Shown here in pieces: positions 2,204 through 5,210 of a DNA stretch of 23,077 nucleotides; position 1 is the stretch's first letter, and the number at the start of each line of letters is the position of its first letter. Position numbers and translations under genes: made by a program. Location: the NCBI GenBank assembly GCA_944331815.1, contig CALVIQ010000092.1, forward strand, positions 1 through 23,077. Reading direction: 5' to 3'. Below the pieces are notes generated by a model. It was not told the origin of the DNA, did no database searches, and saw only the letters and a program-made list of their open reading frames with translations. This stretch comes from an uncultured Bacilli bacterium (GTDB taxonomy: Bacteria > Bacillota_I > Bacilli_A > RF39 > UBA660).

Positions 2204-2237
2204 GAAAAAGACTTAACTATTTATTCTTTTAAGTCTT
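2204..2237 (-). terminator. Terminator overlapping the 3' end of sigE
   Basis: A 9-bp perfect stem (AAGACTTAA with TTAAGTCTT; 2229-2237 with 2208-2216), 12-base loop, then a U-rich run. The 5' arm is made of the last sense codons of sigE and the 3' arm contains its stop codon, so the hairpin is partly coding. Confidence 0.75.
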
Positions 2238-2896
2238 CTAATAACTTTTTTTTCTATTCTAGAAATATATGATTGTGATATACCTAACATTTCAGCAACT
2301 TCTTTTTGCGTTTTTTCTTCATTATCATATAAACCATATCTTAAGACTATTATTTCTTTGTCCCTTTTATTTAAATTATTTATTTCATTATATAATATTT
2401 TTTTATTTGTTTCCTCTTCTAATCCTTTAGTAACTATATCTGGTTCCGTACCTAATATATCTTCTAAGTGTAGCTCATTTCCCTCTGCATCATAGCTCAA
2501 ACTATCTTCAAAACTAACTTCACCTTTTCTTTTTTTATTTTTTCTTAAAAACATTAAAATTTCATTATCAATGCAACGTGAAGCATAAGTTGCCAATTTA
2601 ATATTTTTATCTAATTTATAAGTATTAACCCCTTTAATTAATCCAATAGTTCCGATACTAACTAAATCTTCTAAATCAACTTTAGTATTTTCATATTTTT
2701 TTGCTAAAAAAACCACTAATCTTAAATTATGTTCGATTAACTTAGCACGTGCAAATTCATCTCCTTCCATAGACTTAGTCACATATAATATTTCTTCTTC
2801 TTTTGATAAAGGAGCTGGCAATTTATCAGCACTACCAACATAAAAAACTTCTTGTGTAAATAATTTTATAATTAATTTTTTTAATTTTGTTAACAA
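2213..2896 (-). CDS. sigE: Sporulation sigma factor pro-sigma-E
   Basis: Early mother-cell sigma factor, made as a membrane-associated precursor. Region 2 is clear (HNLRLVVFLAKKYENT, ISIGTIGLIKGVNTY, ATYASRCIDNEILMFLR) and region 4 ends with TQKEVAEMLGISQSYISRIEKK, closely like Bacillus SigE. The conserved segment after the pro-sequence (YVGSADKLPAPLSKEEE) begins near residue 19. The pro-peptide is therefore about 18 residues rather than the 27 of B. subtilis, but is still amphipathic and basic (LTKLKKLIIKLF). Translation starts at TTG 2896, one base after the spoIIGA stop, and the GGAGGG Shine-Dalgarno lies in the last spoIIGA codons, so the two genes look translationally coupled. Assignment to SigE rather than SigF/G/K rests on this pairing and on the N-terminus. 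Confidence 0.95.
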   Translation of the reverse strand: MLTKLKKLIIKLFTQEVFYVGSADKLPAPLSKEEEILYVTKSMEGDEFARAKLIEHNLRLVVFLAKKYENTKVDLEDLVSIGTIGLIKGVNTYKLDKNIKLATYASRCIDNEILMFLRKNKKRKGEVSFEDSLSYDAEGNELHLEDILGTEPDIVTKGLEEETNKKILYNEINNLNKRDKEIIVLRYGLYDNEEKTQKEVAEMLGISQSYISRIEKKVIRRLKRINS

Positions 2897-2897
2897 T

Positions 2898-3665
2898 TTA
2901 TCCCTCCAATATTTTTTTATTTAGCAAACAATCAACACCATCAAGTTTTATTTTGTCTTTTAAAATACCTACAACTACATTTTTTTTAATCATCCCTTCA
3001 ATTTCAATTTTATCTACTTTAAAACATTTAATTAATCCATCACCTTTAACGCACTTATAAGGTATGTAAAAAAAATTATCTAATTTTATTTCTTTGTCTA
3101 TTAGTATAACGGGTTTGTTTGTTATAGGTGTGACTAAATTATTACCAGTATCTAAAAATGAATTAAATAAATATTTTTTGTTTTTATAATAAATATTTAT
3201 TTTATAATAATTATTATAATTATTTTTTAAACATAATCCTTGTTTAATATAAATATATATAATAATTGGACTAAATATGATTAAAAAAATAACGTTAATC
3301 GATAATCCATTATTAATAAATATAATACCATATTGTTTATACGAAAATTCAACATTCAAAAAATATAAAAAACCACCTAAAACAATACTAGTCATATAAA
3401 GATATATTATGTTTTTTAATGTATATTTTATATTTTTAAAACCAAAACTAACTATTACCATAACTATACTCATAATTATTTTATATAAAAATAACATTAA
3501 TGAATTACTTACAAATAAAAATAAAATACTAATTCCTCCAATAAAAGAACCACCTAATATTTTATATATACTTACATTTCTTCGAAGTATAATTGAAACT
3601 GCTAATAGTAATAAAAAATCAAATATAAAATTTAAAATCATAATTAAATCTAAATATATTTTCGT
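2898..3665 (-). CDS. spoIIGA: Pro-sigma-E processing aspartic protease SpoIIGA
   Basis: Membrane protease that cleaves pro-sigma-E at the sporulation septum. The N-terminal half has about five hydrophobic segments. The C-terminal domain carries FLDTGNNLVTPITNKPVILID, the family's active-site D(T/S)GN signature (peptidase family A36). At about 250 residues it is shorter than B. subtilis SpoIIGA (about 309). The first ATG is at 3641, but the frame stays open upstream and encodes TKIYLDLI, matching the family N-terminus MKIYLDVI. It lies 10 bases after an AGGAGG site (3681-3676). I therefore place the start at ACG 3665, a near-cognate codon. The conservative alternative is ATG 3641 with a truncated first helix. 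An ATG at 3673 is out of frame and stops after 7 codons. Confidence 0.9.
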   Translation of the reverse strand, partial: TKIYLDLIMILNFIFDFLLLLAVSIILRRNVSIYKILGGSFIGGISILFLFVSNSLMLFLYKIIMSIVMVIVSFGFKNIKYTLKNIIYLYMTSIVLGGFLYFLNVEFSYKQYGIIFINNGLSINVIFLIIFSPIIIYIYIKQGLCLKNNYNNYYKINIYYKNKKYLFNSFLDTGNNLVTPITNKPVILIDKEIKLDNFFYIPYKCVKGDGLIKCFKVDKIEIEGMIKKNVVVGILKDKIKLDGVDCLLNKKILEG

Positions 3666-3685
3666 ATAATCATCACCTCCTTTTA

Positions 3686-3719
3686 ATTATAAAAAAAAAA
3701 TCATTAAAATTTTGTCAAT
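3686..3719 (-). promoter_or_regulatory. Putative Spo0A-dependent spoIIG promoter
   Basis: Minus-strand TTGACA (3718-3713) and TATAAT (3691-3686) are both consensus but are separated by 21 bp instead of 17. The opposite strand over the -35 reads TTTGTCAAT (3711-3719), 8 of 9 bases of the Spo0A box TTTGTCRAA. The B. subtilis spoIIG promoter is known for its 22-bp spacer and for Spo0A-P binding at the -35, so the architecture matches. The predicted transcription start falls at the edge of the spoIIGA Shine-Dalgarno. Function is inferred. Confidence 0.6.
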
Positions 3720-3729
3720 TTAATGATTT
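3691..3729 (-). terminator. Terminator overlapping the ftsW stop
   Basis: An 11-bp perfect stem (3719-3729 with 3698-3708), 10-base loop, then U-run 3697-3691. The ftsW stop codon is inside the hairpin. The loop contains the TTGACA and Spo0A-like box of the next promoter, and the U-run forms part of that promoter's spacer. Confidence 0.8.
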
Positions 3730-4898
3730 AATTTAAATTTTTCTAATTTTGTTTCAATATGTATTCTTTGAACAACAGCTAAAGAACACATTAAACTAAT
3801 TGCAAATGTACCACCATAAGATAAAAATGGAAGTGGTACACCAGTTAATGGTATTATGCCAAATAAACCACCTAAATTAATAAATATATGTAAAAATATA
3901 TATGTTGCTATACCTAAACAAATATATCTTCCTCTGATTGTTGTTGCATTAGTAGCAATTTTTAATATCCTAAACAAAACAAATATATAAGCTAAAAATA
4001 TAAAACTACATTTTATTGCACCATACTCTTCACCAATAATAGCAAATATACTATCAGTATGAGGTTCTGGAATATAAGAATATTTTTGTTTACTTTTTCC
4101 AATTCCTAATCCAAATAAGCCACCATCATTTAAAGCAATAAAACCATTACATATTTGATATCCTGTTGTTTCATATTTAGAACAAGGATTAAAAAAATCA
4201 AATCGTGATATCTGAGCATCACTTAATAAATATCCTTGTTTCATAACAACTGCTGACATACCTACAATACAAAGACAAAACATTAGTCCAATTATCTTTA
4301 ATTTATCTATTCTTCTAATAGGACTTGCTAAAAATAATACACCAAATATTCCCATCATTATTAATGCTCCACCCAAATCTTTTTGGCTAAATGTTAAAAT
4401 AGGAATTAAAACCGCTATTAGTAGTATTAAACTAATTTTAGACCATCTTTTTGGATTGTCAGAATTTAAAATGCGATAATTTTGTTCAAATAATATAGCA
4501 AATAACACAATCATTACAGGTTTAGCAAATTCACTAGGTTGTAAAGTACCAAATCCTGGAATTGGTAACCAGTTAGTTGCTCCATTGACTTCTTTTCCAA
4601 ATGGAAATAATAATATTACTAATCCTAAAACAATTAAATAAGCAAGCCATATTAAATTTTTATATACTTTTGTTTTCATATTCAAAATAATATAAGAGCT
4701 AATAAGACCAGCTATTAACATTTGTAATTGCTTGAAAAAATAATGATATGTTGAAACCTCATATCTAACTACAGCTTCACGACTTGAAGCTGTAACTATA
4801 TTTAATAAACCAAATAAGAAAAATAAAATAGTAACAATAAATAAAGATTTATCCATCTTACTAAATAAATTTTTTAGGTTTTTTAAGAACTTTTTCAT
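3720..4898 (-). CDS. ftsW: SEDS-family peptidoglycan glycosyltransferase, FtsW/SpoVE type
   Basis: Polytopic membrane protein of about ten hydrophobic segments that polymerises lipid II, working with a class B penicillin-binding protein. Family motifs are visible: TLQPSEFAKP, SQKDLGGAL, GLFGLGIGKSKQKYSYIPEPHTDSIFAIIGEE and, near the C-terminus, PLTGVPLPFLSYGG. The GYQ-to-GLGxGxSxQKxxYxPEPHTD block is typical of FtsW/SpoVE rather than RodA. Start: ATG 4898 is placed 5 bases after AGGTGG and gives MKKFLKNLKN (392 aa). The upstream ATG 4949 has no ribosome site and would cover the probable promoter. Being next to spoIIGA-sigE, it could be the sporulation paralogue SpoVE; the sequence alone does not separate it from the vegetative FtsW. 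Confidence 0.88.
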   Translation of the reverse strand: MKKFLKNLKNLFSKMDKSLFIVTILFFLFGLLNIVTASSREAVVRYEVSTYHYFFKQLQMLIAGLISSYIILNMKTKVYKNLIWLAYLIVLGLVILLFPFGKEVNGATNWLPIPGFGTLQPSEFAKPVMIVLFAILFEQNYRILNSDNPKRWSKISLILLIAVLIPILTFSQKDLGGALIMMGIFGVLFLASPIRRIDKLKIIGLMFCLCIVGMSAVVMKQGYLLSDAQISRFDFFNPCSKYETTGYQICNGFIALNDGGLFGLGIGKSKQKYSYIPEPHTDSIFAIIGEEYGAIKCSFIFLAYIFVLFRILKIATNATTIRGRYICLGIATYIFLHIFINLGGLFGIIPLTGVPLPFLSYGGTFAISLMCSLAVVQRIHIETKLEKFKLNH

Positions 4899-4915
4899 AC
4901 CTTCCACCTTATAAT

Positions 4916-4944
4916 ATGATATCACATATTTACAAATTTGAAAA
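4916..4944 (-). promoter_or_regulatory. Putative promoter of ftsW
   Basis: Extended -10 TGA-TATCAT (-10 at 4921-4916) with a weak -35 TTTTCA (4944-4939) and a 17-bp spacer. The Shine-Dalgarno begins about 6 bases after the -10, so the leader would be close to minimal. Confidence 0.4.
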
Positions 4945-5027
4945 CACAAATATTTAAATTTAGGTATTTTAAATGAACAAATTATCTAAATAATAATAAA
5001 ATATATTAGCTAGAAGGAGGTAATAAT

Positions 5028-5210
5028 ATGTATTACTACGGAGGATATAGCGGTTATGGTTACAATCAACCATATGGCTATGGATACGGTTCTGGATATG
5101 GAGCTGCTATCATTTTAGTTTTATTTATTTTATTAGTAATAATCATTGGTGCCAGAGCATTTGAAAGCAACTGTGGCTGTCATACTCAATCACCTTGCCA
5201 AGGAAGATAA
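5028..5210 (+). CDS. YjcZ-like small sporulation-associated membrane peptide
   Basis: A 60-residue peptide. The Tyr/Gly-rich head (residues 1-26, with repeated GYGY/GSGYG) is followed by one strongly hydrophobic helix (GAAIILVLFILLVIIIGARAF, about 25-45), as in the YjcZ family of tiny Bacillus membrane proteins seen with spore coats. Unusual is the C-terminal tail with three cysteines (NCGCHTQSPCQGR), which most short family members lack. A strong AAGGAGG site lies 7 bases before the ATG. It stands alone, divergent from ftsW. No clear sigma-A promoter is visible, which would fit a sporulation sigma factor, but I see no convincing sigma-E or sigma-K box. Function is unknown. Confidence 0.8.
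   Translation: MYYYGGYSGYGYNQPYGYGYGSGYGAAIILVLFILLVIIIGARAFESNCGCHTQSPCQGR

Follow-up and report, generated by a model that had tools for sequence, protein, structure and literature searches.

How is transcription of the spoIIGA-sigE operon started, and kept apart from that of its neighbour, when an ftsW-type gene on the same strand ends 54 bp ahead of it? This question was raised by the window (the whole stretch of 23,077 nucleotides analysed here, from an uncultured Bacilli bacterium), in which signals for stopping one gene and starting the next appear to share the same bases. Our answer is that a 45-bp stretch, covering the end of the ftsW-type gene and part of this gap, is very probably a composite element, in which a Spo0A-activated SigA promoter would carry an insulating terminator built into its spacer. 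All the evidence is comparative, and the thresholds were our own choice.

The ftsW-spoIIGA gap in the window

The features of the locus are summarized in Table 1. The protein of the upstream gene scored under the NCBIfam cut-offs for FtsW, RodA and SpoVE. SpoIIGA matched the Peptidase_U4 profile (PF03419, 150 bits, cut-off 28.4) and reached 126 bits against TIGR02854, under its cut-off of 209.6.

Table 1 Features of the spoIIGA-sigE locus and its upstream gap in the window.
Feature	Position	Strand	Remarks
Upstream gene, FtsW/RodA/SpoVE family	3720..4949	-	PF01098, E 6.7e-79; stop TAA (3722-3720) within 5' arm of the terminator stem
Terminator-like hairpin	3698..3729	-	5' arm AAATCATTAAA (3729-3719), loop TTGACAAAAT (10 nt, 3718-3709), 3' arm TTTAATGATTT (3708-3698); layout conserved
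U-run past stem	3691..3697	-	part of ten T (3700-3691) that close the 3' arm and extend seven bases past it; last T shared with -10
TTGACA, putative degenerate 0A box	3713..3718	-	conserved core YGACA, 3717-3713
-10 element TATAAT	3686..3691	-	exactly 21 bp from box (spacer 3712-3692)
Shine-Dalgarno GGAGGTGAT of spoIIGA	3672..3680	-	from sequence; GGTG register in relatives
ACG start codon of spoIIGA (probable)	3663..3665	-	not ATG at 3641; PF03419 match starts at next Lys
spoIIGA, sigma-E processing peptidase	2898..3665	-	PF03419, E 1.1e-43
sigE, second gene of operon	2213..2896	-	NF006158, E 2.1e-96, under curated cut-off

The exact pattern TTGACA-N21-TATAAT occurred once in the whole window, and 5 of 100 shuffles also contained one (mean 0.05); with two mismatches allowed, it was at background level (17 against 16.95). 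A classical SigA promoter with 16–18 bp spacing was rejected as an alternative, as such pairs were at background over 3400-5100 (16 found, 15.1 expected). Transcription from the TATAAT would begin about 7 nt past it, at the first bases of the Shine-Dalgarno sequence.

The 11-bp stem folded with a minimum free energy of −7.4 kcal/mol (z −2.9), and 3 of 200 shuffles folded equally well. It holds one G-C pair, so that a standard terminator scan requiring at least three G-C pairs misses it, and it is not G+C-rich, a property usual for intrinsic terminators though not strictly required of them. Both the box and the stem appear to be weak members of their class. The case for promoter and terminator from the window by itself is modest, and relatives decide.

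The first-pass annotation had described TTGACA and TATAAT 21 bp apart, with an overlapping terminator whose loop is the TTGACA segment and whose U-run is the promoter spacer. The pair and its spacing were confirmed, as were the hairpin, the position of the box in the loop and the overlap of the U-run with the promoter. The U-run forms the 3' end of the spacer and not the whole of it, because the T-run spans only 3700-3691.

Two other observations were made in the window. The SigE reading frame begins with TTG, and the encoded N-terminus seems short compared with the NCBIfam SigE model (residue 5 corresponds to profile position 14); it perhaps carries a short pro-sequence (2800-2896, minus strand). 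Divergent from the ftsW-type gene, positions 5028-5210 of the plus strand encode a Gly/Tyr-rich protein of 60 aa, which has a single membrane stretch and a tail containing Cys and had no match in Pfam or NCBIfam.

Promoter geometry, box and start codon among relatives

A SpoIIGA scan of genome contigs gave 22 relatives (best-segment identity 36–94%). They are metagenome-assembled genomes, mostly labelled as Bacilli, with one Candidatus Faecisoma merdavium, whose genus is placed in Mycoplasmatota by NCBI; we infer that the group is the order RF39, small-genome Bacilli. The available text of a previous report states that spoIIGA occurs in RF39 and that spore formation is predicted (PMC10868615). 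Of the 193 genomes in the order to which G003 belongs, 170 had SpoIIGA, and 129 further loci were added, giving a working set of 152 loci (the window, L001-L022, L078-L106 and L117-L216). The loci are kin (142 distinct 32-mers among 152), so that the counts and p values below are not independent.

GACA stood exactly 21 bp before a −10 element with at least five of six matches in 129 of the 152 loci, compared with 0.28 in dinucleotide shuffles. Each other spacer between 12 and 30 bp was found in 0–7 loci, except for 27 bp with 17. The 21-bp geometry extended to a wider class sample, where 21 of 36 loci had it. A base profile compiled from 150 loci (two of the 152 omitted) had Y-G-A-C-A, the −10 element and a GGTG ribosome site at a fixed place, with a faint second element approximately 10 bp upstream of the box; its percentages are inflated because the register was chosen by the box and −10 scores. 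Comparison thus shows YGACA-N21-TATAAT to be a promoter-like pair of fixed geometry, whose distal element reads as the reverse complement of a Spo0A box.

The spoIIG and spoIIE promoters of B. subtilis are Spo0A-activated SigA promoters with spacers of 21–22 bp, and the window agrees exactly with this SigA −10 and spacing. The likeness to B. subtilis spoIIG extends to the same spoIIGA-sigE operon, a 0A element approximately 21 bp from a SigA −10 and, among the relatives, the presence of Spo0A: a Spo0A_C domain was found in all 22 relatives and in 183 of the 193 genomes of the order. Two of the genomes have two adjacent Spo0A_C matches each, which are probable tandem spo0A paralogues (G156:C32:7111-8286 and G161:C17:267227-268414).

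The base preceding GACA in the 129 loci was C in 80, T in 37 and A in 12, against a region background of 8% C. Box counts over the 152 loci were CGACA 91, TGACA 40, AGACA 13, CAACA 5 and others 3, in a register picked by a score favouring the first two forms; the count of the preceding base is free of that bias. Read on the other strand, YGACA becomes TGTCR, which forms the core of the 0A box TGTCGAA. According to the accessible part of one study, Spo0A contacts G2, C4 and G5 of this box, and altering the contacted bases strongly cut binding of C. difficile Spo0A, approximately 10-fold (PMC3485338). These three bases correspond, on the other strand, to C, G and C within CGACA. TTGACA in the window is without one of the three and is expected to be a weak 0A box.

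A consensus −35 overlain on the other strand by a Spo0A-like box, as part of a conserved Spo0A switch, had also been proposed from the window. The near match to a 0A box is present, and CGACA as the commonest form in relatives agrees with it. Box and spacer length were retained across relatives, and also in the 21 wider-sample loci. The reading as a consensus −35 holds for the letters of the window, and TTGACA is not conserved: L001-L008 have ATGACA, and CGACA is the most frequent form over all loci. The switch itself gained support from the comparison, with TTGACA as a −35 being incidental and the window box probably weak.

Between the −10 and the spoIIGA start codon there were 15–17 nt in 117 of 152 loci and 20 nt in the window, so the mRNA would begin at or near the ribosome site. 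In five loci (L019, L021, L022, L188 and L201), only 6 nt separate the −10 from the ATG and no ribosome site was seen; the spoIIGA mRNA would therefore be leaderless there.

Codons at the start position were ATG in 130 loci, ACG in 10, TTG in 5, GTG in 3, ATA in 3 (L009, L011 and L020) and ATT in 1 (L136). ACG was found in the window and nine relatives (L001-L008 and L010), together with a strong Shine-Dalgarno sequence. Codons 2–7 of these ten loci vary only between TAT and TAC, and codon 8 encodes I or V; the codon two before the start has seven forms, including an in-frame TAA in L010. A start at ATG 3641 is unlikely, as codons 2–8, which precede it, keep their protein sequence through synonymous changes and the in-frame stop is present in L010. 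From this pattern, spoIIGA of the window's clade would initiate at ACG. The two best matches in a protein search were 247 aa long, as if begun at the inner ATG, and a length of 256 aa was also present among the relatives; gene callers seem to start spoIIGA of the ACG loci at the inner ATG and to miss its likely N-terminus. A non-canonical start in a sigma-factor switch, overlooked by gene callers, is also described in the portion available of a study on Streptomyces sigR, which has a GTC start codon under IF3 control (PMC5472188). The present case differs from that account in having ACG (or ATA/ATT) on a sigma-processing peptidase, and adds a key sporulation protein to those whose probable N-terminus is overlooked by gene callers.

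A terminator-like hairpin in the promoter spacer

Hairpins were detected by an energy-based scan with a cut-off of −3 kcal/mol and six of eight T following the stem. An initial hairpin score was discarded in its favour as too loose (65% of shuffles cleared its lowest cut). Some hairpins that can be seen by eye escape the scan (L159), and L136 and L094, which have spacer repeats, were classed as "up". In 109 of the 152 loci, the hairpin ended in the spacer (layout A); in 12 it lay just upstream, with the T-run extending towards the box (layout B), in 12 it was further up, and in 19 none was found. Shuffles that preserved the box and T-runs gave 6 layout A and 142 without a hairpin among 152. 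When 3' halves were exchanged among loci, 38 spacer hairpins were counted on average (60 trials, maximum 49), compared with 111 of 151 before the exchange. Of the 109 layout A loci, 82 had the box in the 5' arm and 6 had it in the 3' arm; in the remaining 21 it occupied the loop, which is also its position in the window. Pairing at the first box position was C-G in 41, T-A in 18, A-T in 9 and T-G in 0. Stem sequences vary and run past the box, and many relatives have more G-C pairs than the window. Comparison thus shows a terminator-like hairpin of the upstream gene, placed such that the box is usually in the 5' arm or the loop and the U-run forms the spacer end; the sharing of one stretch of the window by stop codon, terminator, promoter and activator site, as had been claimed, is real and is conserved as sequence.

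A strict layout A pattern matched 60 places in 57 of the 193 genomes, and its reversed control matched one. Among 30 of these loci examined, 22 stand before spoIIGA, as found by script for 19 and by eye for L299-L301. The remaining eight precede five cse60-like genes (L278 and L294-L297; Pfam was run on L278), two SirA-like genes (L279, confirmed by Pfam, and L298, unmatched) and one spoIIP (L306).

The mean T content at spacer offsets 17–24 was 4.4 of 8 outside layout A and 6.9 of 8 within it, a contrast that arises partly by construction because the scan requires a T-run. Loci without a spacer hairpin had similar −10 matches (5.1–5.3 of 6, compared with 5.4). This suggests that the spacer T-run serves the terminator; the idea that a long spacer requires a T-tract is doubtful, as loci outside layout A have fewer T and a similar −10.

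The upstream gene of each locus was oriented by our ORF rule (6 of the 152 loci were too short). A terminator was found after 127 of 141 co-directional genes and 1 of 5 divergent ones (Fisher p 0.0008, uncorrected for kinship, with only five divergent loci); the energy-based scan found none in the other 14 co-directional loci. For 104 layout A loci, the co-directional upstream genes formed 41 sequence clusters (blastp E 1e-4, single linkage, by which distant relatives may be split), and the stop codon was within 60 nt of the box in 92 of these loci, from 35 clusters. The 41 clusters indicate that the terminator goes with spoIIGA and not with one inherited neighbour, which rules out inheritance of the hairpin with a single upstream gene.

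As in intrinsic (Rho-independent) terminators, a hairpin followed by a U-run comes after co-directional genes and was not found at four of the five divergent ones. In contrast to intrinsic terminators, the U-run here closes a promoter spacer and reaches into the −10, an activator box forms an arm or the loop, and the stem is often AT-rich. We know of no spacer terminator at the B. subtilis spoIIG and spoIIE promoters, whereas it is the commonest layout among the 152 loci. Six loci of larger genomes that have the motif (L246, L248-L250, L253 and L254) had no terminator overlapping it. A literature survey on RF39 and Spo0A, spoIIG and Spo0A, and terminator-promoter overlap, mostly at title or abstract level and with few subscription papers, brought up nothing recognisable as this arrangement.

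Related promoters and the proposed action of the composite element

The 21-bp module was also found before sirA in 20 of 30 loci (0.15 in shuffles), before cse60 in 17 of 30 (0.28 in shuffles) and before spoIIP in 17 of 24 usable loci, the last without a shuffle control and excluding 6 of 30 loci in which the script found no start. Family identity was confirmed for example proteins of all three. In B. subtilis, sirA is a direct Spo0A target. Layout A was found in 2 of 20 motif-bearing sirA loci, 2 of 17 spoIIP loci and 1 of 17 cse60 loci (5 of 54 overall), and the 21 motif loci of the wider class comprised one layout A, one with the box in the 3' arm, two layout B, seven with a separate hairpin and ten with none. 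Nesting of the terminator in the spacer is therefore typical of spoIIGA in this order.

Further modules were noted in individual loci. L109, L111 and L114, from three genomes related to the window's clade, have tandem TTCGACA-N3-TTCGACA boxes 10 bp apart, 21 bp before the −10 and after a terminator-like T-run, preceding a membrane sensor histidine kinase (Pfam was run on L109 only). L110, L112 and L115, also of this clade, have TTCGACA-N21-TATAAT before a 142–148 aa single-span protein (MKKYLLTI...); Pfam gave no clear family for the L110 copy, and the gene is a candidate new Spo0A-controlled gene. SpoIIP is apparently under a Spo0A-type 21-bp promoter in L107, L113, L116 and L306 (Pfam for L107 and L306), and the gene ahead of it in L306 resembles Gpr protease by eye. 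In L257 and L266 of the wider sample, as judged by eye, the two signals overlap in a third manner, with the GACA box as the 3' arm of the hairpin that would terminate the upstream gene.

In the reading that we favour, Spo0A~P would bind the box and recruit SigA polymerase or reorient it over the over-long spacer, as at B. subtilis spoIIG, and activation would start spoIIGA-sigE transcription. The terminator would end transcription of the neighbouring gene, in the window the ftsW-type one, and shield the developmental sigma operon from vegetative read-through. As the hairpin lies upstream of the expected spoIIG start, it would act on neighbour transcripts, and attenuation of spoIIG was ruled out on this ground.

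Since terminator and promoter overlap, competition between them is possible. Beyond insulation, the two may exclude one another, a proposal that we regard as tentative. During growth, polymerases terminating on the U-run would occlude the box and −10 as long as the division gene is busy; on the spore side, Spo0A~P and SigA polymerase on the site would block the arriving polymerase, and a drop in upstream transcription would help to fire spoIIG. The geometry forces such an overlap, as a polymerase at the U-run would cover both elements, and the overlap recurs beside 41 clusters of upstream genes, although a separate upstream terminator is possible (the 12 "up" loci). Against this, sharing of bases could be mere economy in genomes of approximately 1 Mb, and the −10 is similarly good in loci without a spacer hairpin. 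The more specific claim is that two processes contend for the same 45 bp, namely termination of an upstream gene of growth or division and transcription initiation at the spore sigma operon; we put it forward with still more reserve.

Binding of YGACA by another regulator, or its use as a plain SigA −35 at an odd distance, would suit the perfect TTGACA of the window and is improbable. The C before GACA in 80 of 129 loci argues against a −35 hexamer, which it spoils, and makes a 0A core. In addition, the module recurs before sirA, cse60 and spoIIP, and the tandem TTCGACA precedes the sensor kinase in three genomes.

A marginally smaller chance was given to the inverted repeat not being a terminator: it could be a palindromic protein site in the DNA, or have arisen as a side effect of repeated 0A half-sites. 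With the box in the 5' arm at 82 of 109 loci, the 3' arm does resemble an inverted box, and the T-run in the matches is there by construction, as the scan demanded one. The spoIIGA strand nevertheless carried hairpin and T-run around the box and spacer in 123 of 152 loci, compared with 33 for the opposite strand (a notable scan background), and four of the five divergent loci had no such structure. Moreover, the box is in the loop at 21 of 109 loci, and the stems extend past it with changing sequence.

Chance in AT-rich DNA, where TATAAT, T-runs and weak stems are common, is favoured within the window by its weak stem and the exact matches in 5 of 100 shuffles, but is refuted by the comparison (129 of 152 loci against 0.28, and 109 against 6 of 152).

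The composite element, a Spo0A-activated promoter with its insulator in the spacer, thus stays the preferred reading. YGACA-N21-TATAAT offers a sequence-level definition of candidate Spo0A targets in a group known here only from metagenome-assembled genomes, by which the sporulation programme of the group becomes readable from sequence. A stop signal and a developmental promoter share bases beside many different neighbours, which raises the testable question of whether a terminator within a promoter is economy only or couples the genes. If competition between them is true, vegetative transcription itself would gate entry into sporulation.
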